A stretch of 64,000 nucleotides of DNA from Limnoperna fortunei. Taxonomy: Eukaryota > Mollusca > Bivalvia > Mytilida > Modiolidae. Position 1 is the first letter of the stretch. Every line of letters begins with the position of its first letter. This document shows positions 6,505-49,900 of the stretch, piece by piece. The DNA is taken from assembly GCA_944474755.1 (NCBI GenBank), contig OX104120.1, positions 22,617,242-22,681,241 on the forward strand, given 5' to 3'. The notes under the pieces were generated by a model. That model saw only the letters and a list, made by a program, of their open reading frames with translations, was not told where the DNA came from and ran no database searches. A program made the translations under genes and the position numbers.

Positions 6505-6940
6505 AATTTTTATACCCCTGCAAACTTGTTTGGGGGGGGGGGGGGGGTTTATAGGAATCACCCTGTCTGTCCGTCTGTCCACATCCCTTGTAAGCACTTC
6601 TCCTCCTAAACCGCTTGACAGATTTTGATGAAACTTTACATGAAGGAAGTACATCATATGTAGATGTGCATGAAGAATTTTGGTCGCTGTCCGATATTAT
6701 TCAGGGGAGATAATTGGACTTAGACTTTTAAAATATAGTATTCAGTGTGAGACCTCGTAAGCGCAACTCCTCTTAAACCGTTTGACAGATTTTGATGAAA
6801 CTTTACACGAAGGAAGTACATCATATGTAGATGTGCATGAAGAATTTTCGTTGCCGACAGATATTCAGGGGAGATAATTGGACTTGAAGCGAAGCGGGGG
6901 GTATCCCTTTGTGAGCGTGCTCACAGTCCACACTTGTTTT
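6505..6940 (-). repeat. tandem-module repeat with poly-G, ACAAGTGTGGACTGTGAGC end
   Basis: Two modules of about 150 bp (gattttgatgaaactttaca, ggaagtacatcatatgtaga, aggggagataattggactt). On the minus strand it starts acaagtgtggactgtgagcg and ends after a run of 16 C. Downstream of GNPTAB. Confidence 0.7.
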
Positions 6941-7429
6941 TGTTTGTTTGAATGGTATTCAATGCTCTTTTTAGCCATTTTTCAGCTATATTATGGTGTC
7001 CACTTTTGATTGGGGGAGGAAGACCGAGTACACGGAGATGTTGTATGATTTAACATCACGTCTAAACAAAATACAAGCTTTACATTGATTGGTGTAAAAG
7101 TTAATGTACATGAACTAATATGGATGGCGATATGAAAGGCTAATTATGAATGCTCTCCCTTTATTTGGACAGGGGGAGATGATATGAATGAATGATGGCA
7201 GTTCTAACATAACCGAGTTTAAAAATCTTAAAATTGTTTCTAAAAAAAAAATAATAAATTGCACTTGCCCTGGATACTTACACCTGAATAGACATATATA
7301 TAGGTAAAGATGTTTAGAAAAATACATTATTTTAGCAGATATTTTTTTAACAAAAACACAATTTCACAACAAAAAATTTGAGTACAACATACAAGAATAA
7401 AAAACTGGAAGACAATATTCATATTTAAC

Positions 7430-7875
7430 ATATGTAAAAATATAAAACGTCTTTTATTCTTGCCTTAATCAGCATTGTTGTACGTTTTGTTAATCAAATG
7501 GGGTGTCCCAGAAACACATACAAGGCACTTTTATACAGCCACACCACTGATATTATTTTTTCATGCCATAAGCTTCATGTTAAATTAGATTCAAACATCA
7601 CAGCACATATAAAAATAAAACATTGTTCCCTGGTATGTACTTCTGGAACAGCCCAAAATGTATATATTTTATGTGTTTTTACTTTTTAAAAATTTTAACA
7701 AATAATTTTAAAATGTATTTTAACACTTTCCAATATGACTAGTTTGTAATTTTTTGAAATATTCTACTACCTAAAATATGTGTGATTCCAAGGCCAATAA
7801 GACTACAATAGAAATAATTAGTAGCACCAGTATGACCATTAGAACATCAGGTGTAATCATCCAGAGCAGTAACCG
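7430..7875 (-). other. probable GNPTAB 3' UTR with candidate poly(A) signal
   Basis: A minus-strand AATAAA lies at 7453-7458, about 420 nt after the stop, with a T/G-rich stretch beyond it. The sequence in between has no coding signal. Another AATAAA at 7160-7165 would make a longer UTR. The end cannot be fixed without transcript data. Confidence 0.5.
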
Positions 7876-7950
7876 TCATACGGTCATAATTCTTCCTTCT
7901 TCAGATGTAGAGGATCTGTCACGCCTGTATTTTTTCTGCAAGGCTTCAAT
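7876..7950 (-). CDS. GNPTAB: GNPTAB last coding exon: cytosolic tail and stop
   Basis: Residues 1004-1027 plus TGA at 7876-7878. [15 protein letters not shown] matches the basic cytosolic tail LIALKRKIFPRRR of vertebrates, with a similar short end after it (24 residues here). The acceptor is TTACAG. It is separated from the membrane exon by a 3.4-kb intron that is largely mobile DNA. Confidence 0.93.
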   Translation of the reverse strand: MEALQKKYRRDRSSTSEEGRIMTV

Positions 7951-10900
7951 CTGTAATATGATCATTAGACAAAGTTTATTTGTTAATCATATATTCTTAC
8001 ATAGATCTGTACTAGGACAAGCATCTTTCATTATTCATTATTTGTATTTATATCTACAAATTGCCTATAAAATGAAGACTATATATCTATGTATAATGGA
8101 ATACAATTTAAAAAAGTTCATTATTTAGCAAATAAAAGATTAATTGGATGTCTGCTTAACATCCAGCAATAAATATTTCTGCTATAATCAGGATAGGATA
8201 CGATAAATCAATTGGTAAAGAGATGAAGCATTAGGAACACAATTTTGACTGCCGCTGGAAAAGTATGCATCATTTAGTAGAGACAGAGAAATTATAAATG
8301 AGCCTTCTCTTATTGAAATTTACAAAAGGGGTCTATCCTGCAAGGAGCACGCCCCTATCCATACAAGTTACCCACTTTGATACGGGGTCAGACTTATTAA
8401 TTTCGCATTATGACCTGACAACAACAACAGGGCCTCCACTATCTGCCAAATGAGGATGTGCTGGGCTGCTGCGTGGGTCAACCACTGGTAACCCATGGCA
8501 CAGGATGGCCATCTGGAGACATACTTGGCAGTTTTGTGTGTCAGTCACTTGGAACCCAGGCACTGGGCCGCCAACTGTCAAGCACTGGACACCCAGGCAC
8601 AGGGCTGCCACCTGGGGACATGTTCAGCAGCTCTGTGGGTCAAGCACTGGACACCCAGGCACAGGGCTGCCACCTGGGGACATGTTCAGCAGCTCTATGG
8701 GTCAAGCACTGGGAACCCAGGCAAATGAACATTGAGGCAAACCTACCCTATTTTGTAAGGTTTTGTTTTCTAGGTTTTATTTGGAAACACAAAAAAAATC
8801 CCAACACAAAACATGTTAAAATACCATATATAATCTTAGTACCGTAAAAAGCTGTGTATAGTCCGCACCCCTTTCTTGGGCCAGAAAATTGGGGAAAAAT
8901 TCGTGTATGCATGTACAATCCGCACGTAAAAAAATTAAAAAAACGTCTCAAGATGAAGACATCGAGTCCGACTTGGTCACGCTTTTTAACAATTTTTTTA
9001 CTGTTATATGTAATTTATTCTCTCTTAAAATATCATTTATGTTTATATTTTTATTCATTTCTAGTGATTGTAATAAATTAAATAAAAAATTACATTCTCA
9101 TAGCGTCTATTTAGATCGTTGTTAAAACGGATACTCACACATTTCGAAATCAAAACAATTTGTCAACTTTCATTTATCAATGAAAACAAAAAAAAACCAA
9201 AAAGATAACACGTTTTATTTTAATCCCTTAATGATTGCAATCAAAACATCGATCTTCAAACATTTGAGGTTACATAACGACGCCATTTGCATTGTACGCA
9301 ATACAGGTCACACATCCACTATTTTCGTATCCTTTTAATTTTTATTCGTCCTATATAATTATTATAACATTACTAAAAATAATTTAAGTACAAAATAATA
9401 TCATTACAACTTATTTATATGGAAGTTTGTAAAAGAATCATGTTAGAATAGTATGAAAGTACCGCATATAACACAACAACAAAATGGCGACCGCCATTGA
9501 CAACATTCAACGGGACGAAACACACTCTATCGAGTCTGTATTTAGGCCAAAAAAAAAAAATTATTAGCTTCTCAGGCCCCGCCGCGTGTCCCATTTACCC
9601 GCCGCATTCGTCGTTTTTTATCATACCAAAAAAAAAAATTAAAAATCGGCAGTTCCGCATCCCGCCCGGAAATTTTTCGCGTCTGTTTCCGTTACCGGTA
9701 AAATTTATGATTTTAACAATCATCGAAACGTTTTCTTTAACACGATTTATCACGTGGTGTGGTGATTTAAATATACATCGTTTGTTTAACTCCGTCAGCA
9801 TCGCATCGTCTTTGGTGTCATGCCAAGTCCTCTAGGGAGGAAAAATAATACCGTGGACAATTCATTGCGATTTTATGACGGAGTACGCTTGGGGACTTGT
9901 TAGAATCAATTAATGCCAACGCTGCAGCAGCCATTGTCAAATTTGAAGGCTACACAGCCGATGCCGGCTTCATTGCGAGGTCCATTATGCCATTGCAGGA
10001 ATGCGAGACAACTCGGACCGTAATAGGACAAGTCGGACCGTGTTATTCATATACGGTCCGAGTTGCCCTATAATTGATGTTCCAAGAAATCTAAATTGTC
10101 ATGTAAAAAAATAAAGTTTTTGTTTGTTATTGTTAACTGCAGACGTTTATTTTATTAACTGTACAGCAGTTGACCAGACTGAAATTTGTTGTTTAACGTG
10201 AAATTTACTATGTATCAGAAAAAAACATAAAACAAAAAAAAGCTTCAACATATATTTATTTTAAAATAAGGGAATTGTGATATCAGAGTATGGTATCATG
10301 TCGTCACCATTTTTTCACATCTTGACCAAGCTACTCATTTGGAATCACAGAAATTTCTATCTAATTAAGTTTCACTAAATTAACTTATTTGAAAACACAC
10401 AAGCTCAAATTCTTTCAGATCTTAAAATTGAAACAACATGATTACCGATCACATTAATTGAAGCCACAATTATTATAGATAATTGTGAGTGTTTTCTGAA
10501 TTCTTAAAATTTAATGTTGTTATTTGTGTCGCATTTCTCATCTTAACATTTAACTTTTATATAATTAAATCGGTATAATTTACATTCGAGTAGAACTATT
10601 TCAATTTACTAGAAAAAAATTTATAACGTTATATGAATAAATATTATAAACAGGACTATCATATTTTAATATTTTAATGACATTATGAGAAATAAATGCG
10701 GTCAGAGTTGTCCTATTTTCTACGGGCCCAGCTGTCCTTGCTACAGTCCGAGTTGTCTGCGTTCCAAGTTGTTCGGTTACCAATTACAGTACATATATCA
10801 AAAAGAAGACAACAAATATGTATACAAAAAGTTGGTATTAATTTCCCATTAAAACAGAATTCTTCAATTTCTTGTTTTATATACCAGTGTATAAGAACAG

Positions 10901-19900: not shown

Positions 19901-22900
19901 TAGTTATTGGTCCTTGGCCAGCTGTCTTAGATGTGGAACTATAAATATGCCAATACAGAAATCATTACATAATAATATCATAATATGTCTGCCATAAACC
20001 GTAGTATAAAAATTTCCAGCTGTGGACATTAACAGTTTAGATACTTACAGGAAGATCTAAAGGAAGTTCATACAGTACTGTTGCTAATGTTCTGATTTCT
20101 CTATCTGATAAAACCCTGAAATTAATATTAATAATTACATAGATTTAGAAAAGAACAAATATAAATTTAACCCACTGATTACACAAAACTTGCAATCCAA
20201 AGGACAGGCAAAACCATTTAATCATTGAAACAAAAAAAAAATAAAAAAATAAAAGAGAAAAATTAAGAGCTGCATGTGAAAACAGGCACTCTGGAAAGTA
20301 AGCATTTTGCACATTATTAATGACACCTGTCAGGTAAGTCTTTATAGATACAATGAAAAATCAACTATCGAAGTTTCAGTATTATAGAGATCAACTCTGT
20401 GACACTTACCTTGTATATATCTACAAGCTCATATACTGATAATGTTGACCACAAATTTTAGTAGTTTGCATTGAGAAATTCTGAAGAAATCAATGAAGCA
20501 TGTTTTTATGATGGTATTAATGTTTTATTAATTTATGATTCATAAGATCTATGAATTTTGCCAGACATGTGATTGAATTCACATTCTCAGGGAAATGTCA
20601 GTTGACGGTACAGATGAATGAGGTTTATATAGATATTTGTGAAGTCTATAGTGAATTTGTGCATCACTACAATAGTATTTACAATCTTATGAAGTATTAC
20701 CTTAGAGCTTTCTCTGTGTACTACATACCTTGATTTATCTGTATCCATCTGGTCAAAGATTTCCTCTGCTGTGATGTTACGTGTTACTCCTACTACATAC
20801 CTTGATTTATCTGTATCCATCTGGTCAAAGATTTCCTCTGCTGTGATGTTACGTGTTACTCCTACTACATACCTTGATTTATCTGTATCCATCTGGTCAA
20901 AGATTTCCTCTGCTGTGATGTTATGTGTTACTCCTACTACATACCTTGATTTATCTGTATCCATCTGGTCAAAGATTTCCTCTGCTGTGATGTTACGTGT
21001 TACTCCTACTACATACCTTGATTTATCTGTATCCATCTGGTCAAAGATTTCCTCTGCTGTGATGTTACGTGTTACTCCTACTACATACCTTGATTTATCT
21101 GTATCCATCTGGTCAAAGATTTCCTCTGCTGTGATGTTACGTGTTACTCCTACTACATACCTTGATTTATCTGTATCCATCTGGTCAAAGATTTCCTCTG
21201 CTGTGATGTTACGTGTTACTCCTACTACATACCTTGATTTATCTGTATCCATCTGGTCAAAGATTTCCTCTGCTGTGATGTTACGTGTTACTCCTACTAC
21301 ATACCTTGATTTATCTGTATCCATCTGGTCAAAGATTTCCTCTGCTGTGATGTTACGTGTTACTCCTACTACATACCTTGATTTATCTGTATCCATCTGG
21401 TCAAAGATTTCCTCTGCTGTTTTGTTAGGTGTTACTCCTACTACATACCTTGATTTATCTGTATCCATCTGGTCAAAGATTTCCTCTGCTGTGATGTTAC
21501 GTGTTACTCCTACTACATACCTTGATTTATCTGTATCCATCTGGTCAAAGATTTCCTCTGCTGTGATGTTACGTGTTACTCCTACTACATACCTTGATTT
21601 ATCTGTATCCATCTGGTCAAAGATTTCCTCTGCTGTGATGTTACGTGTTACTCCTACTACATACCTTGATTTATCTGTATCCATCTGGTCAAAGATTTCC
21701 TCTGCTGTGATGTTACGTGTTACTCCTACTACATACCTTGATTTATCTGTATCCATCTGGTCAAAGATTTCCTCTGCTGTGATGTTACGTGTTACTCCTA
21801 CTACATACCTTGATTTATCTGTATCCATCTGGTCAAAGATTTCCTCTGCTGTGATGTTACGTGTTACTCCTACTACATACCTTGATTTATCTGTATCCAT
21901 CTGGTCAAAGATTTCCTCTGCTGTGATGTTACGTGTTACTCCTACTACATACCTTGATTTATCTGTATCCATCTGGTCAAAGATTTCCTCTGCTGTGATG
22001 TTACGTGTTACTCCTACTACATACCTTGATTTATCTGTATCCATCTGGTCAAAGATTTCCTCTGCTGTGATGTTACGTGTTACTCCTACTACATACCTTG
22101 ATTTATCTGTATCCATCTGGTCAAAGATTTCCTCTGCTGTGATGTTACGTGTTACTCCTACTACATACCTTGATTTATCTGTATCCATCTGGTCAAAGAT
22201 TTCCTCTGCTGTGATGTTACGTGTTACTCCTACTACATACCTTGATTTATCTGTATCCATCTGGTCAAAGATTTCCTCTGCTGTGATGTTACGTGTTACT
22301 CCTACTACATACCTTGATTTATCTGTATCCATCTGGTCAAAGATTTCCTCTGCTGTGATGTTACGTGTTACTCCTACTACATACCTTGATTTATCTGTAT
22401 CCATCTGGTCAAAGATTTCCTCTGCTGTGATGTTACGTGTTACTCCTACTACATACCTTGATTTATCTGTATCCATCTGGTCAAAGATTTCCTCTGCTGT
22501 GATGTTACGTGTTACTCCTACTACATACCTTGATTTATCTGTATCCATCTGGTCAAAGATTTCCTCTGCTGTGATGTTACGTGTTACTCCTACTACATAC
22601 CTTGATTTATCTGTATCCATCTGGTCAAAGGTTTCCTCTGCTGTGATGTTACGTGTTACTCTTACTACATACCTTGATTTATCTGTATCCATCTGGTCAA
22701 AGGTTTCCTCTGCTGTGATGTTACGTGTTACTCTTACTACATACCTTGATTTATCTGTATCCATCTGGTCAAAGATTTCCTCTGCTGTGATGTTATGTGT
22801 TACTCCTACTACATACCTTGATTTATCTGTATCCATCTGGTCAAAGGTTTCCTCTGCTGTGATGTTACGTGTTACTCTTACTACATACCTTGATTTATCT

Positions 22901-25900
22901 GTATCCATCTGGTCAAAGATTTCCTCTGCTGTGATGTTACGTGTTACTCCTACTACATACCTTGATTTATCTGTATCCATCTGGTCAAAGATTTCCTCTG
23001 CTGTGATGTTATGTGTTACTCCTACTACATACCTTGATTTATCTGTATCCATCTGGTCAAAGATTTCCTCTGCTGTGATGTTACGTGTTACTCCTACTAC
23101 ATACCTTGATTTATCTGTATCCATCTGGTCAACGATTTCCTCTGCTGTGATGTTACGTGTTACTCTTACTACATACCTTGATTTATCTGTATCCATCTGG
23201 TCAAAGATTTCCTCTGCTGTGATGTTACGTGTTACTCCTACTACATACCTTGATTTATCTGTATCCATCTGGTCAAAGATTTCCTCTGCTGTGATGTTAC
23301 GTGTTACTCCTACTACATACCTTGATTTATCTGTATCCATCTGGTCAAAGGTTTCCTCTGCTGTGATGTTACGTGTTACTCCTACTACATACCTTGATTT
23401 ATCTGTATCCATCTGGTCAAAGATTTCCTCTGCTGTGATGTTACGTGTTACTCCTACTACATACCTTGATTTATCTGTATCCATCTGGTCAACGATTTCC
23501 TCTGCTGTGATGTTAGGTGTTACTCCTACTACATACCGTGATTTATCTGTATCCATCTGGTCAACGATTTCCTCTGCTGTGATGTTACGTGTTACTCCTA
23601 CTACATACCTTGATTTATCTGTATCCATCTGGTCAAAGGTTTCCTCTGCTGTGATGTTACGTGTTACTCCTACTACATACCTTGATTTATCTGTATCCAT
23701 CTGGTCAAAGGTTTCCTCTGCTGTGATGTTACGTGTTACTCTTACTACATACCTTGATTTATCTGTATCCATCTGGTCAAAGGTTTCCTCTGCTGTGATG
23801 TTACGTGTTACTCCTACTACATACCTTGATTTATCTGTATCCATCTGGTCAAAGATTTCCTCTGCTGTGATGTTACGTGTTACTCCCATTAGAAAATAAT
23901 AATAGGAAAATGCAAACTGCATGTCATCTGAACTACGAACTTTATGTGATGAGGTAGCATCCCACTCCTCTGGAAATCTGAAAACATATACTTCATATAG
24001 TTTAATAGTAAAGTAACTAGTCCTGTCATTTTACAAGAGTAAAAGTACAATCTAATTAAATTATATTTCTTAGCTGCTCTCAGTTTGTTTTTTGGGTTTA
24101 TTTGTTGTGCAAAAAGCAACTGAAGATCAAATTTTAACAAGGAACCTGTAAGCTAATGCTCACTCAGTATACCACCACTATTCACATCATTGAATTCACT
24201 AAGTCGGTAAACAGGAAGTAGATATGAATCAGACTGAAATCAGTACTCGCAATATAGGACCACATAGTAAGGCTACGAACTGTTACGAAAGTTATCTTGC
24301 TGACAAAAGGACAGAAGGACAGAGGTAAACCAGTATACCCCCTCTTCTTCGAAGCAGGGGTATATTTATACTGGTAAAAGTATAGAACAGGTTCAAATAC
24401 AGAAATCAAAGAAAACATTAATGTTTGAAAAAGGTCATATCATTGAGCCAGGGGAAGTTTTTAATTTCTTCAGGGATCAACATTAACTGTAAAACCTACT
24501 TGTCCATTCAGACAAGTAACAGTCAGGTTTTACTTGTCCGAAAGTACAAAGTACTTGTCCGAATTAAACAACCCATTTTGGTGACTGGAAGTGGTGTGGA
24601 TGTCACAAATTAATGCATTACTTTGTTAAAAATGTGAGCGTATACTCTCTATTCTGTAAGATGTATTGCCAGTTACAAAATTTGTCCAGCAATATCAGGA
24701 TTAGCCTTACAAAATTTGCATATCATGCCACTGTCAGTATCCTCTATGCCCTCAAACTCCGACTCCCACGATTTAATGAAAAGCCTACTTCTTTTTTGTT
24801 CATATTTTTGTTTTGCCTCCTTATTGGCAGTTTTTCTTTTTTGCGGAACTCCACTAAAAAATTTTGACAAGGTTAACTGTTCTGCCATATTTCAATTTTG
24901 ACTCAACTGCATCGAAATTCGGCTTTTATATTAATTTTTTTCTGAACCTGACACTGACAAGTGGCACGAAATGTCAATTAAGATGACACGACGTACGTAT
25001 TTAAAATTATAAACTGTTGGCCAAATTTAACAAGTTATGAAAATTTTATGACAGAAATCGAACTTCTTTCCATTTATTTGTATCAATAAAACGACAATTA
25101 ATTCATTCATTTCATTATTTTATTGAAATAAATTGTTTTAGTCTAAAACATCCGACAGTTGTATCGTAGTTATTTTAGAACATTTTTCCAGAAAGGCCGA
25201 TATAAAATTAGCATCAACGATTTCATTGGATGATTATTTATAATAAGTAAGAAACGGGATTTCATTGGTTATTGTTAAGTGACGCGTGTTTATTTTTAGA
25301 AAAGGGGAATTTTGGTCGCAATGCAGGGTTTTATTTTTAACACAATTAATGCGAGAATCGCCGCTTAAAGGACTTTTTAAAAATTTACGATTGTTCTAGA
25401 TAAATTTGATTTTATTTTCACTTGTCCGATCGGGCAACTGAAACAAGCTTTTTACTTGTCCGAATTGTATTTTTACTTGTCCCGGACAATCGGACTACCG
25501 TTAATGTCGATCCCTGTTCTTATGTGGAAAACCAAAAGCCCCTGTGGACCTGGTAGGACAGATAGGTCAAAATTTTTTAATCTGCCAATTTAAATTTTCA
25601 TGCATATTTTCTATCCAAAAAAGTCTCATTTCAGTGGGCAACTTATATACATAGCAAAATTGAAGTGTAATAAAGCATGTTGCCATGTGTAATAAAAATC
25701 AGAGAAAAAAAGTTATTCAAGATTTTGTACAGCTTCAATAATACAAGAAGCAAGAAAGGAATCGTATTTCCTTCTAACATGAACATATACACTACAGCCA
25801 AAACGGATTACGCCAAGTCCGTGAGTCCATGATGGACACCGATTGTAGTACGCGGACATTCCTGATGGACAGAAGTTCATCATTCGCGGGCACTTAAGAT

Positions 25901-28900
25901 ATGATGTCCCCAATGGATCCGCGATTTCTCCCATATGTCCGCGAACATAAACGTAATTGTCATGGACTGAATTCGATAAATACTTTATTTGAAGATAGTG
26001 TATATTGTTCCTGTCATTAAACCATTCAGTTATGTATTCATTCTTTCCAGATCGTCAGTTAAAACATGTTCATGAAGGGTACTTTATTAATTATTTTACA
26101 TAATAAATATTTTCATATTAATTTGTAAAAAATGGGTAACAAAAAACAGATATAGTAAACTTTTATACAATAAAGGTGTGTTTAAACTCTTATAATATAA
26201 ATAGGTGTTAATAAAACGCTGGCGTAAAACACCTTTCCTTATGGTGCCCCGAGGAATTAGGATACCTGTCGTCCACCGGATGCAAAATAGAACGGTCCAT
26301 TGATCAAGGAACACCTGCGATTTTATTGTGGGGTCAACTAATATACGCGTGTATAAATGTGTGTAAGAGTTGAAAGGTATGAATTACGGTAAATTTCATA
26401 ATTATAATAAAAAAATGTCCCGCTGGCTTCCTGTTCAGGTGACTGGTGTTAATTGATGAAGGTAACCAACACGTGGACTTTCCGTGTAATTAAAATACTA
26501 CGCCGACCGGAAAGTTTTATTGTCTCAAACGCATTGGAGCAATATTTTTTCGCACACGTTTTCAAAACTTTGGCAGTCGTAGGTTTAGTGGAATATTGTT
26601 AAAAAACACATATTTACTTTAACTTTTTTAAAGGAATTTTGTACAATTAGTTGCAACCTCGAATTTTGATGTCGTCAGCCAGCGACACGTGTCACTTATA
26701 GTTTTTTGCTCCTCCCATTCATTGCGTGATTCCCGCCTTACCTATTGATATTTTGGTAATAGTGTGTTAGTTTTGGCACACCTATCTGTCCATTAATCTA
26801 ATCTCATCAGGTATTCAAAGAGACCAATAATTGACACATGATTTCTCACTCTGTGCATGTCCAATTGTTATAGAATTTACACAAACAATAGAATTTGTTG
26901 AATGAACAATTATGTAAAACCAACATAAAATAAAGACGTATGAGTAATGAGGTTTCTAAAATGTTACTGCCTTTCTGCAACAAATACTTTCATTACGAAT
27001 TTCTGCAGTTACAAGATATGCCTTGTACAAGTGCCGTGTTTTATCGCGGCAATACCGCGAAGTCCATGAATAGACGATTCTGCAGTCATTTTGGTCACGG
27101 AACGTTCGCGGACAATTATCACTATAAAAATTGATTGCCGCGTCGCGTTCGGCCGTGTTTATTCGCGGACTTTGCGGAATCCATCTTGGCCGTAGTGTAC
27201 ATGTATAACACATATATAGATTACTGACTCTGCTGACATGTCCCCATTAAAATCTATTTGCCACCATCAATTTAGCAACTGATGCCAGGAAATCTTCAAA
27301 TACAATATTGTTTTATCCTAAATGCTCAACTATAATCAGTGGGACCATTTAAAATGGTGGAATGTGCAGGTGTTAGCCCTCTATTTAGTTTAGTTAAATG
27401 GTCGCCTGGGTGACTAAATTGACATTTTGGCGACTAAAAATCACTAAAAAGTTGCCAATTGGCATATTCCCATTTTTGTTAGTGGCGACCGGAAAATCCG
27501 GACAAAAATCTTTTCCAAGCGACTTTCTTCTAGAATTTAGTTATTTGTCACTTAATTCAAACATCTATCGGATTTTGTTCTTGTTTGTCCAAACTGTCAT
27601 TTCACTCCCCTTTTAAAAAGATACCTCAAAAATTCCGCAAGCATGGCAAGTAACAATCCCTGTTAACAGGGTTATCACATGCTTATAACATTGTCCTTTT
27701 GGCTACCAAAATAATATTTTTGACAGCTACCAAAATTTCGACTTGGCTAGTAAATTTTTGAGGTTGGAAGCCAGAAGGCTACCTGATATTAAAAGGTACT
27801 TTGACAACTGGGTGTACCCAAATCCTGGCCTAGAAAGCCTAAACATCAGTGTTTCTGTCAACTCCTTCCAGACAGAATTTATGATTACAATGAGTTAGAG
27901 AATCCTTGACTTATGATGATGCTGAGGAAGTTACTGCTGAACTTAGTCTGGTTAGTGTTTTAATCAAGAATACACCTTTGGACATTCAAAATGGATAAAG
28001 AGATAAATATATTTTAAAATAATAAATTTATAAAATTTTCATACATATATCTAAATATTATTAAAAAATCAAAGAATGTGTCCATGGGACACAGATGCCC
28101 CAGCTAAATGAAGTCCCAAACAGGAAGTAGTTGTCCAACAGGTCTGAAAGTCGCTTAGGATGTACAACTTGTGATACTGAACCACCCTGCCAAATTTTAA
28201 ATTGTTCTCATGTACAATTTCTGAGAAAAGCTTGATGGAAATTCGTACTAACAGACAGATGTATGTATGTACATGTACTAATGAAGTCCCAAACAGGAAG
28301 TAGTTGTCTGACAAGTCTGAAAGTCACTTAGGACATACTGAACCACACTGCCAAATTTCAAATTTTTCTCATGTACGGTTTCTGAAGAAAGCCTGACTGA
28401 TGTACAGATGGACGTAAGTACGGAGAGACATGAGTAAAACTTAATGCCCCCCCCCCTTTGACATGTCGTAGCGGGGGCATTAAAAAGGGAAATAATTATA
28501 TTAACTTACCTTGAGTGAAGTTCTTCCATTACCAGCTTATCAATAAAATGAGGCATATGTCCAGGAACTTTTCTGGCTGTATACCCAAACTCCCTGTTGT
28601 AAATCTTGTTAACATGACGAAGAGAATCCCCAAATGTGTCCAGAAGTCTTCTTCTGGGAATGTGTATTTCATCTGCATACTGCTTTTTAACCATTTCTTT
28701 CTTCTTTGTCTGAAATTTTTGAATGATCAATGCAGAAGATGTACATAATTCAAAATTCACTCTACCATCAATTTTTTACATGGCGCACCAAAAAACCCCA
28801 AAACATATGTTGCAGATGATTGGTATAACTATCTACCTGGGTAAAAATGAGAGATTGTACATAAGTGATGAAATGATATATAATGGTAACGACATCTCCT

Positions 28901-43900: not shown

Positions 43901-46900
43901 GTAAATTCTTTGTATCATTTACTACCAAAGTTTATGTTATGTCTCCAGACCTTACAACCTGTGTTACAAGTCATAAAAACATCAAGCAATGAAATCAGTA
44001 ATAGAGTTAAAGTTCTATTTAAAGTCCCTGACATGAGCCAACATAGTCAATCAAGAACTGTGTACCTTTTAAATTTCTCACGATCTGATTCAAGAAGTTT
44101 GTCCATGTCCAAATATTATGACAAATATATCCTACACAACATGCTAATTTGGTCAAAAGTATTATGAAATACTACATAATGTTATGTAAATTTATAAGAA
44201 ATTTACATTTCCATTGAAAGTACTATTAATAAACACATAACCACCATCATGGCTCAATCAATTGAAAATACCAGGAAATTCTGCATAATGAGCATCAAAG
44301 TGACAAATAAATTCTAAAAAACATTACTACTGAATAACACATAACTGACTACCATGTCCATCAAATCAATAAACTGTTATGTCTCTTTGAAGGTCACATA
44401 ACAAATAAAATGAAAAATAAGCAGCAGAAAACAACTGGTACATACGTTTCCATGACCATGATCACTAACCTTAAACCCATCACTGTATGTATAGAAGTCA
44501 TCTGGCCACACATCTTTTCCAAACATCACATCATCATTCATGTAAATAAACTTCTGTGATAGGCCAGGTATACGATGGAGGTGGGACTCAATGGCAGGAG
44601 AACTGAATGTGGGAAGATGTGACTTATTGGGAAATATTTCCTAGAATACAAATCATTAGCATTTAGATCTTTTTAGTACTTTTAGATATTTTTATGTTTG
44701 CTATGGTCTGTTGAAATTTAATAGGATCTATTATAATTATGTATTTCCATAAGTAAATTCCATAGTATCAAATGTTTTTCATTGAGTATTTCAGGAGTTA
44801 CATAAAGCATTTTTCTTATGATAAACTCTTTACTTGACAAGTCACTATTCCTTTTTAATATTGCATGTTTTTTTTTTCAAAGTTTGACAACTTTCATCAA
44901 ATTAACAAATGTAAGCTTTGATGTTACTGCTTTCTAACCCTACCAGTATTTTTTCTTGCCAATTATTTATATATGCCAATCCAGAACATTTTTTACCTCG
45001 TGTGTAACAATAGATAGTCGACTACTTTCCATATTCATCCAGTACGGAATCTGACCATTGGTCACAACATACACATGTCTGATCCAAGGAGCAAATCTTT
45101 CCAAGGACCTCAATGAATATCTCAGTTCTTCGTTGTCTTCAAACCGACTTGCAGATATATCGGAATCTTTTCTGAACTGAAGTAGAATATGAACAAACAG
45201 TGTATTTAAGATACTACTGATTTTTTTGGAAACCATTTATAACAAGTGTGGACTGTGAGCGTCTCTTTCAAGTCCAATTATCTCCCCTTAATGATATCCG
45301 ATGTCAACAAAAATCTTTCATGCACATATACATATAATATACTTCCTTTATGCTAAGTTTGATTAAATTTCATCAAGCCGTTTAGGAGGAGTTGCGCTTC
45401 CAAGGGATGTGGATAGACGGACAGATAGACAGTTTTATTCCAATATATCCCCTGGGACCATACTGGGAGGGTTCCCAGTGCTCGACCCACAGAGCAGCCC
45501 AGCGCGTCCCCGGGTGGCGGATAGGGGAGACCCTCTCGTTGGGGGGTTGTCAGGTCATAATACGGAAAGCCTGACCGCGGACCGTAGTGGGTAAAGTGTT
45601 TGGAGAGTGCCACGCTCCTTGCACGATAAAGACCCCTTTTGTAGATTTCGAAAAAGAGTAGGCTCATTGCAGCCGCTACAAAAGGCTAAATTTTCCGCCC
45701 CTACCCAAAACACCATACTTTTCCAGTGGGAGTCAAAATTGTATTCCCTGTGACCCATCCCACCCCCATTTTCCGTTGATTTATTGTTTGTTAACTTGTT
45801 CCCGTCCCGAATATAGCTGAAATACTGCTCGCTGGACGTAAAGCAGACAACCAATCAATCAATCAACCTATATATCCCCCCCCATCCCCCCCCCCCAAGT
45901 TTGCGGGGGTAAAATAACATGTATCTCTGCTCCACTGATTTGACGTGGAATATCAGTTTTGACTTGTAATCACTAGTGTGTCAACAGTGAGGATGAAAGT
46001 TGGAGTCTGACTTCTGGCAGGTGGTGCTCGAATCCAAGCGTTACTGACAATGATTGCCAGTTTTGCTGCAGAAGGTTGGGGGTTTGGAAAAGACACTCTC
46101 TTGTCCTCACCCAATTAAAACTAGATGCCATGAAAAAAACATTATGTAAAACATACAAACCATCTAATTTGTTTTATCTTAAAATTCAATTTTTGCACAT
46201 AAAATATAACAGGATTTTTGGCAACTTTGGATGAAAAAGATATAAGAAAAAATCAGGTATTTATTTTTATTTTTTATTTTAAAATTTTATTAAAATTTGT
46301 GGTTGATATGAAAATACTTACTGCTATTAAATAAACACTCAGTATTCATAAAAAATACACAAATAAATGGGTTGTAATTAGTACTAATACAAACTAGCCA
46401 CAAGTATTTACAAAGGAACTTTTATATACTGTTGCCTGCATAAATATTGGCAAAATTTATTTGGTGTGTTTTTAATTGACCACAAAACTAATTAATTTCA
46501 GAAAAACTAAACCACACCACAGTAAGATACTGCTTGCTGCTTTTTATTTTAATACCACAAAGCTCACAATAACACTGTATAGCTGCTACATGCCAAGTTC
46601 AGGGATGTTTTTGCATGTTTCAAGTGTCAATTTATGAGAACTTTCTAAATCCCATCACAGACAGTTACACATGATCTTATACTGCATATTAACAAACAAA
46701 AACATCCCACCCAAAGTAGATCCTCAAATTGTTCTTACTTACACCTCTTAGATCCCACCCCAAGTAGACCCCCATACTTGTTCTTACTTACACCTCTTAG
46801 ATCCCACCCCAAGTGGACCCCCATACTTGTTCTTACTTACACCTCTTAGATCCCACCCCAAGTAGACCCCCATACTTTTTCTTACTTACACCTCTTAGAT

Positions 46901-49900
46901 CCCACCCCAAGTGGACCCCCATACTTGTTCTTACTTACACCTCTTAGATCCCACCCCATGTTGACCCCATACTTGTTCTTACTTACACCTCTTAGATCCC
47001 ACCCCAAGTATACCCCCATACTTGTTCTTACTTACACCTCTTAGATCCCACCCCAAGTGGACCCCCATACTTGTTCTTACTTACACCTCTTAGATCCCAC
47101 CCCAAGTAGACCCCCATACTTGTTTTTACTTACACCTCTTAGATCCCACCCCAAGTAGACCCCCATAGTTATTCTTACTTACATCTCTTAGATCCCATAC
47201 AAGGCTGGCAGCACTAAATGTTGGCTTCTTGCCATCAATGGTAAAATTGTCAATCTGAAATATGAAATATACACATCTTCAGTGTATATACATTTTGAAT
47301 AAAGCAGAAAAAAATTCAGAAATAATTCATGGATGGTCATATTTAAATAAATTTCACAAAAAATAGAAACATCCTACACTGTTGGAAATTAGATTTCTTT
47401 TTTGTGTACATACGAGATACATCTAATTACCGATGGCTACCACTTAGAAAACGAACAGTACAACAGCCCTTAATGAAAAATTGTAACCGAATGATATACA
47501 AACGCTTTTTAAATAAGTTTTAAAATTAAAATTCTTTGAAAATTTATAAACATTTTGTTATAATCATTTTTTTAAATAAATTTATACTCTGCAATTGAAA
47601 GAATATAGTTTTTTATACTTTGATATTTCACCAGTACAATGAATGCATGCTTCTGAGCAGATGCTTATACGGCTCATCCGCTAAAGTGACTAAAGCCCTC
47701 AAAATCCTAAAAAAATTCCCTGAATTTGTAGATACTGCCTTAAATTTGTGATACAAATGAACAAAAATGTTGTTGAAATTGACATAATTATCTTGTGCGT
47801 AGCTTTGCAGATCAAAACTGACAACAATCGCCATTCTGATGTTTTGTTATGAAAATTAGATCAAACAAACTGGCTTAATGTGCTTGCTGAGATGGCACCT
47901 TGTAATAAGAATTGAGTACCAATGCCAAAGAGTTGATTGTAAAATTAGATGGAAATGGAAGTAGTGGAAGAAAAATTGTTGTCCTGCTTGGCATTAACCC
48001 TTTTACTTTCAAAGTTTCTGAAGTGCTTTGGCTCCGTTATTGTGAAGAAAACGCACAACATAGTGGACCGCCCAATAAATTTAATGACAAGACGGACAGG
48101 CAACTTTTACAGTTAGTGAAACAGCGTCAAAAGAATTGGAGAGATCTTACAAACCTTTTAAATTAACTGGTGCCATTAAATTTAGCGAATAACTGTGAAG
48201 GGGAGGTTATAGGGATTCAAAAGAAGGGTTGTAAATGAGAAATTATTCATCAGTGATAGGAACCCTTTTTATAAGTGTTGTGGAAAGCTTCGTAAATAGT
48301 TACCGAAACAAGATTAACTTTACTGACAAAAATTGCAAAAACAGCAGAGTGCATATTTGACAAAAAACGGTAAACAAAGGTTTGAATCTTTCTTTAACAA
48401 AGAGTGATAAAACCGCTGGTCCTGTCGTGAGTATCATGTTTTGGAGCTGTATTACATTTGACGGTGTTGGCACATTTGTACCAGTCAACAGAACAATAAA
48501 TTCACATAAGTATACTGCTATCCTGGATGAATTTCTTTGGCCTGTTGTGACCAAAGTTTTTCCAAATAAACCATGGATATTTCAGGACAATAATGCTACC
48601 CCCCACCGCTCAGGACATACTATTCGTTCGGACCATGACAACAATATTCTGCTCAAAGCCCTGATATTAACATTATAGAAAATATCTGGAGATTGATGAA
48701 AATTTGTTTACAGAAGGTGATTCACAGAAATAAAAAAACAAGGATGACTTAATAGGTGAGGCCAAATGTATTTGGATGTCCATCGTTTCAACCTTCATAC
48801 AATCTATTTACCAGTCTATTCCAACTAGAATTTGTCGTGTTTTGAGAGCAATTGGGCAATAACAAAATATTATGGTAAGTTGTTTTTATTAAACAAAAAT
48901 AATGCTTGTTTATTAACTTTTGTTCAACAAAATGGTTGTATTCGTGTATAATGACATCGGCCATTTTGAGGTTTTTTAAGGAAGTAAATCTTCAACATAG
49001 TACAGAACATACTGTAATACCACGCTACACTTACATTCACTAGTCCATCAAAACTTTCTTTTTGAGACACTTTGATAACAGCCAGTCCTTCATCATCATG
49101 AATTTTAAACTGAAAAAGATCAAAGGAAAATGGATTTAATTGTTGCTTATAAGATAGAACCCTCTGTACAATAAACATTGTCTCATACCTTAAGCAAGGC
49201 ACTGTACTTGGAAAATGTACAGCAACACAATATTTTCTTCAGTAAATTGCCAATTTCTGGTACAGGTGACCACTCATCTGTACTTGTATCATCCAATCAA
49301 AACGCTTAAGAAAGTTTGTTATGGTAACATAACAGTAATCTTCTTTAACATTCTTGCTGGGCCAATGGATGTTGGATATAAAACAATTGAGAGTTCACCA
49401 GATATCACGATGTGATAGTAGTTGTTTTACCGGAAAAAAGGTACATGTATAGGTAGGGCTAACTATGTAAACCAATAGCCAAGAGAGGTCAGCAAAAAGG
49501 TACATGTATAGGTAGGGCTAACTATGTAAACCACTAGCCAAGAGAGGTCATCAAAAAGGTACATGTATAGGTAGGGCTAACTATGTAAACCACTTGCCTA
49601 GAGAGGTCAGCAAAAAGGTACATGTATAGGTAGGGCTAACTATGTAAACCACTAGCCTAGAGAGGTCAGCAAAAAGGTACATGTATAGGTAGGGCTAACT
49701 ATGTAAACCAATAGCCTAGAGAGGTCAGCAAAAAGGTACATGTATAGGCAGGGCTAACTATGTAAACCACTAGCCTAGAGAGGTCAGCAAAAAGGTACAT
49801 GTATAGGTAGGGCTAACTATGTAAACCACTAGCCTAGAGAGGTCAGCAAAAAGGTACATGTATAGGTAGGGCTAACTATGTAAACCACTTGCCTAGAGAG

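Follow-up and report, generated by a model that had tools for sequence, protein, structure and literature searches.

Forty-four tandem copies of an exon end in GNPTAB of the bivalve Limnoperna fortunei: a minisatellite of the mirage type with probable splicing at donor 1

What does a gene do with 44 copies of one of its own 5′ splice sites? The question is raised by GNPTAB of the bivalve Limnoperna fortunei, in which one exon runs out into a tandem array of 72-bp units, each repeating the exon end and the start of the intron. The window analyzed is a 64,000-nt stretch of assembly GCA_944474755.1 (contig OX104120.1, positions 22,617,242 to 22,681,241); coordinates are positions in this window, and the gene lies on its minus strand. 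A first-pass annotation had proposed that the locus either makes a ladder of protein isoforms or obeys a strict first- or last-donor rule. The array, referred to here as array 1, is a real minisatellite of the mirage type, unusual in its length, and splicing probably takes place at the first of its donors. The reading we favor, with a probability of about three in four, is that the first donor is used, the other 43 are intronic, and the array has no role at the protein level.

The 44 tandem 72-bp copies and their exon ends, as described in the first-pass annotation, were recovered by Tandem Repeats Finder (TRF) and by unit-by-unit reading. TRF reported 44.0 copies of period 72 at 20719-23886, with 98% matches and 0% indels. 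Exon ends recur every 72 bp (23825, 23753 ... 20729), and none of the 44 units lacks a GT donor. Chance could not produce a repeat of this extent. The consensus is matched exactly by 30 units; the other 14 (units 2-6, 8, 11, 13, 15-18, 35 and 42) differ from it at one to three positions. Twelve of the changed units lie within units 2-18, and units 19-34 are identical to one another, which appears to point to a recent expansion. Mirages are further marked by concerted evolution that spares the boundary units; in array 1 the first and last units equal the consensus too and are not set apart. The description of the donors as identical and strong needs two corrections: the donor is AAG/GTATGT (the slash marks the exon end) in 43 units and ACG/GTATGT in unit 5 (exon end 23537), and its strength is middling, with a predicted U1 pairing energy of -6.3 kcal/mol against -4.5 to -10.1 kcal/mol across the 20 resolved donors of the gene.

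Runs such as units 19-34 are of the type that assemblers may miscount, and the true array could in principle be much shorter than 44 copies. We find an artefact of this kind hardly credible. The 3.2-kb array lies in an assembly with a chromosome-sized 78.5-Mb contig, whose reads probably exceed the array in length; the variant pattern across units 2-18 is irregular; and minisatellites are frequent in this genome, with 31 arrays of period 20 or more and 2.8 or more copies occupying 20.9 kb, or ~10%, of a 200-kb sample from this contig.

A spliced counterpart of the gene was obtained by protein search. P0002, an unbroken protein of 1,169 aa, is encoded by a 4,567-nt contig, and its coding sequence spans ~59.8 kb in the genome, from 67649 (in the flanking stretch L009) to 7879; because the contig is so much shorter than this span, it represents spliced RNA. 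The source label of P0002, "lgn", is taken to mean the Logan assemblies of public reads. The Pfam set of the protein (PF17101, PF11380, PF17102, PF17103, PF00066 and PF18440) comprises Stealth regions, Notch repeats and an EF-hand region. With these combined in one protein, the gene is GNPTAB (GlcNAc-1-phosphotransferase alpha/beta). The joined exon pair matches PDB entry 7s6n (GNPTAB) with E=1.9e-26, and the closest named protein over the exon is from Mytilus galloprovincialis (88%).

Compared with 21 consecutive spliced exons of the window, P0002 is identical at 911 of 918 residues without a gap, with unrefined outer boundaries for the two terminal exons. These exons measure 56-299 nt. Junctions were sought by script, with GT or GC accepted at the donor and AG at the acceptor; 22 of the 24 tried were resolved, every one GT-AG, and the other two lie between 16.2 and 12.0 kb. 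Residues 74-141 of P0002 were left unplaced on the genome. The comparison confirms the array exon and the exons on either side of it as given in the first-pass annotation (Table 1). P0002 might have come from a paralog or a second haplotype, but neither was found in the 1.335-Gb assembly, where 42 of 42 matches to the exon pair, like 44 of 44 unit matches, fall at the array locus.

At the array exon, P0002 reads MDTDKSRVLSDRE, which is one unit exactly, and continues with the next exon (VLSDRE). Donor 1 is the used donor if the animal behind P0002 carries the array. P0002 is one of 44 retrieved proteins (P0002-P0045): a first search over candidates of ~920-2,935 aa returned 25 long proteins (P0002-P0026), and a second over ~135-430 aa, in which scoring was confined to the 7,994 candidates with the most shared words, returned 19 partial ones. 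The unit-unit junction, KSRYVV, was absent from all 44 proteins in these length ranges, and all 25 long proteins have an unbroken 12-residue EF-hand loop. A last-donor rule was rejected, as it would need a 3,249-nt exon adding 1,032 aa and no such protein is among the 44. Of the possibilities raised initially, a first-donor rule is thus favored by the single unit in P0002, by the missing junction and by the minigene data described below, and the ladder finds no support within the ranges searched.

The partial proteins bear on the age of the splice site. In 18 of the 19, the reading frame stops no more than 6 residues from DTDKS, which suggests an old, apparently conserved intron position at donor 1. 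Of these 18 (P0027-P0044), 13 have R as their last residue, in keeping with the common donor GTAAGT, which in this phase gives AGG TAA. The units of array 1 are open because GTATGT reads through as RYV, where GTAAGT would give an in-frame stop.

Published data on the choice between competing 5′ splice sites provide a candidate cause for use of the first donor. According to the available part of PMC9225289, when a minigene spliced by exon definition, with 365-nt flanking introns, offered a pair of identical 5′ splice sites, the upstream one was used exclusively, and human donors of near-equal strength between long flanking introns likewise showed a preference for the upstream one; short introns favored the downstream donor. 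In the scenario we envisage, a tandem duplication would have captured 62 nt from the end of the exon together with the adjoining 10 nt of intron, and then expanded to 44 copies, the 5′-most of which would have continued to serve as the exon end. With long introns on either side (4,532 and 3,709 nt), recognition would occur across the exon, with the upstream acceptor pairing with the nearest donor. Exon definition would select donor 1 of array 1 in this way, the donors being identical there, and the remaining 43, inside the 3.7-kb intron, would be removed along with it. The array would be tolerated and homogenized by unequal exchange as a neutral element. We infer that an array-bearing animal splices at donor 1, that exon definition is the cause, and that the array is neutral. 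RNA structure masking the later donors was considered and rejected: two units fold hardly better than shuffled sequences (z -1.13), 27 of 200 shuffles being as good.

The opposite reading would make the array a coding device, with many donors used and up to 1,032 extra residues, together with their glycosylation sequons, varying with allele length. In its favor, the unit is a multiple of three, 0 of 44 units contain a stop codon in the gene frame, and use of donor n inserts 24 x (n-1) residues, from 0 to 1032, into the EF-hand loop, all as initially claimed; modeled at n = 1, 2, 3 and 44, the placed part of GNPTAB would have 918, 942, 966 and 1950 aa without a stop. The escape of GTATGT from the stop that GTAAGT would bring at this phase likewise speaks for such a ladder. 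Each 24-residue unit would bring an N-glycosylation sequon (NIT, or NKT in unit 35). Each would also add the first half of the EF-hand loop, which the next exon would complete for the last used unit only.

An open frame is, however, common by chance. A unit of like make-up (62 exon and 10 intron nt) would be open at 15 of 19 GNPTAB donors, with that of array 1 among them. When donor-spanning duplications of 30-150 bp were enumerated over the gene, 12.5% were both in frame and open. With 15 of 19 donors giving an open unit, the in-frame openness of array 1 is not rare and is no sign of selection. Six of the eight single changes in the array are nonsynonymous, synonymous changes being expected at 21-27%; the idea that the units are coding repeats under selection was rejected on this count, in a test of low power. 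Since more than one unit is found in none of the 44 retrieved proteins, since use of donor 44 means a 3,249-nt exon, and since a second array of similar build in the same gene cannot be coding (see below), we consider a functional ladder very unlikely.

Precedents exist for the design as such. One is the splice-donor minisatellite of human IFI6, whose unit is ~12 bp long, against 72 bp in array 1. Canestro 2002 is reportedly the founding paper on "mirages", and Turri 1995 is said, by its title, to concern a minisatellite of IFI6 that supplies splice donors. In amphioxus, mirages consist of exon-intron boundaries repeated in tandem (available part of PMC3087553), and they reportedly leave regular splicing undisturbed in the cases covered by the accessible text of PMC3087553 and PMC3902484, namely Adh3, the globins BflGb6 and BflGb9, troponin C and PGBD5. 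As far as these sources extend, array 1 resembles them in that its units span an exon-intron boundary and copy the splice signals, and unit sizes overlap (10-72 bp in Adh3 and 150-160 bp in the globins). It differs in belonging to another phylum, in being in frame and open throughout, and in copy number, 44 compared with 6 and 3 in two BflGb6 haplotypes. In human IFI6 (6-16, G1P3), a minisatellite also offers repeated donors, and two downstream units are used to give three mRNAs, as the available section of PMC4526556 describes; in GNPTAB products, by comparison, one unit alone is seen. A further comparison is with the potato RdRp gene, in which an intron was gained by tandem genomic duplication (PMC4974935, in the part available). 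That event too was a duplication inside a gene with a bearing on splicing, but array 1 creates no new intron and instead lengthens an existing one with copies of its own 5′ edge. The repeated-donor design is therefore already described, contrary to the statement in the first-pass annotation that no such gene was known: IFI6 and the amphioxus mirages precede it, to the extent of the sources cited.

IFI6 also provides a precedent for a short, leaky ladder, in which donor 1 would be dominant and donors 2 and 3 would be used at a low level, adding 24 or 48 aa of little or no function. Donors 1-4 are identical, and exons ending at donor 2 or 3 would measure 225 or 297 nt, inside the range of the modeled exons. 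A second unit is nevertheless found in 0 of 44 retrieved proteins, although a cluster representative could mask one, and identical donors in the exon-definition minigenes gave exclusive use of the upstream site (PMC9225289, in the part available). We regard a short ladder as unlikely.

A second exon of GNPTAB heads an array of the same general kind, array 2, whose unit consists of the last 14 nt of the exon and 35 nt of intron. Nine of its nine extra donors would bring stop codons, and seven of the nine would shift the frame as well, so array 2 cannot yield a protein ladder. P0002 matches its first-donor product. The native first unit differs at three sites and the last unit diverges; predicted U1 pairing is -4.9 kcal/mol for the native donor and -5.9 kcal/mol for the nine copies, which thus pair better. 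Provided that the animal behind P0002 has the array, this suggests that GNPTAB can tolerate donor arrays at its exon ends without their being coding devices. Two donor arrays in one gene are at most a weak excess over chance: when the ten TRF-listed arrays within the gene span were placed at random, 31% of trials put at least one of them on a donor, and 5% at least two.

Several points weigh against a neutral array spliced at its first donor. The animal behind P0002 may carry one-unit alleles, in which case the protein is uninformative on donor choice at both arrays. P0002 represents a four-member cluster at 90% identity, in which isoforms with a few more units could hide; the searches covered only ~135-430 and ~920-2,935 aa, and the second scored just 7,994 candidates. 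The constraint test drew on 8 variant types only and has low power, and IFI6 demonstrates that repeated donors can be used (PMC4526556, in the part available). The splicing data are also double-edged. In the same available part of PMC9225289, the downstream donor is the commoner choice when strength is not matched, in ~60% of human events and in the majority in all four intron classes, and the stronger site is dominant in 86% of events. Because the upstream preference holds only for near-equal donors, it does not explain array 2, where the copies pair better; first-donor choice there would need something beyond exon definition.

The extra donors might instead act in RNA, with U1 binding shielding the long intron from premature polyadenylation or tuning splicing and the protein left unchanged. 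Forty-three U1-type sites in a single 3.7-kb intron make this conceivable, and suppression of premature polyadenylation by U1 is known in general (PMC3826338, in the part available). Such an array heads just 2 of the 20 resolved GNPTAB donors, however, and we think the chance of an RNA role slim.

With first-donor splicing as the favored reading, the locus constitutes a natural experiment on 5′ splice site choice: 44 donors are in frame, so that use of a later one would be visible in mRNA and in protein, and array 2, being out of frame, is a built-in comparison within the same gene. Both arrays allow a direct invertebrate test of the exon-definition rule, by which the acceptor's nearest donor prevails, and also of how far donor copying can go without cost. 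They carry mirage-type minisatellites beyond the amphioxus cases described in the available parts of the sources above, and similar ones are worth seeking in other minisatellite-rich genomes. Should array-bearing animals make a GNPTAB ladder after all, with steps of half an EF-hand plus an N-glycosylation sequon and a range set by allele length, which we hold to be very doubtful, a fast-mutating minisatellite would give a lysosomal targeting enzyme a heritable means of adjustment.

Table 1. Positions of the two donor arrays and of neighboring GNPTAB features in the window.
Feature	Position	Strand	Basis or remark
Array 1, 44 tandem 72-bp units	23886-20719	minus	unit = last 62 exon nt + first 10 intron nt
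Array exon of GNPTAB, 153 nt with donor 1	23825..23977	minus	phase-2 donor in EF-hand loop (DTDKS-R/VLSDRE); spliced comparison with P0002
Donor 1, 5′-most; the used one according to the P0002 protein	23815..23830	minus	18 of 19 partial proteins end here
Unit 5, sole unit with altered donor (ACG/GTATGT), synonymous in gene frame	23527..23598	minus	
Preceding GNPTAB exon	28510..28709	minus	separated from array exon by 4,532-nt intron
Intron with donor 1 used, 3,709 nt, holding 43 of 44 donors	20116..23824	minus	spliced comparison
Next GNPTAB exon, 67 nt, finishing the EF-hand loop (VLSDRE...)	20049..20115	minus	spliced comparison with P0002
Exon heading array 2	47183..47254	minus	spliced comparison with P0002
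Array 2, 10 donors GRT/GTAAGT, spacing 49 (48 once), exon ends 47183 ... 46743	46704..47197	minus	

Three further observations were made along the gene and its surroundings. Exon 50591-50460 is followed, 21 nt past its end, by the start of a 59-bp array of 17 copies (50439-49435); the repeat lies close to this third donor but leaves the donor itself out. The first exon, in flanking stretch L009 (67649-67437 relative to the window), starts with VYTQQC against MYTPQC in P0002 and is two residues shorter, and translation may begin at a later MRDD. Among the sampled stretches of the contig, one (L029) holds a 35-bp array of ~99 copies at 6554-10000 that reaches the end of the stretch.

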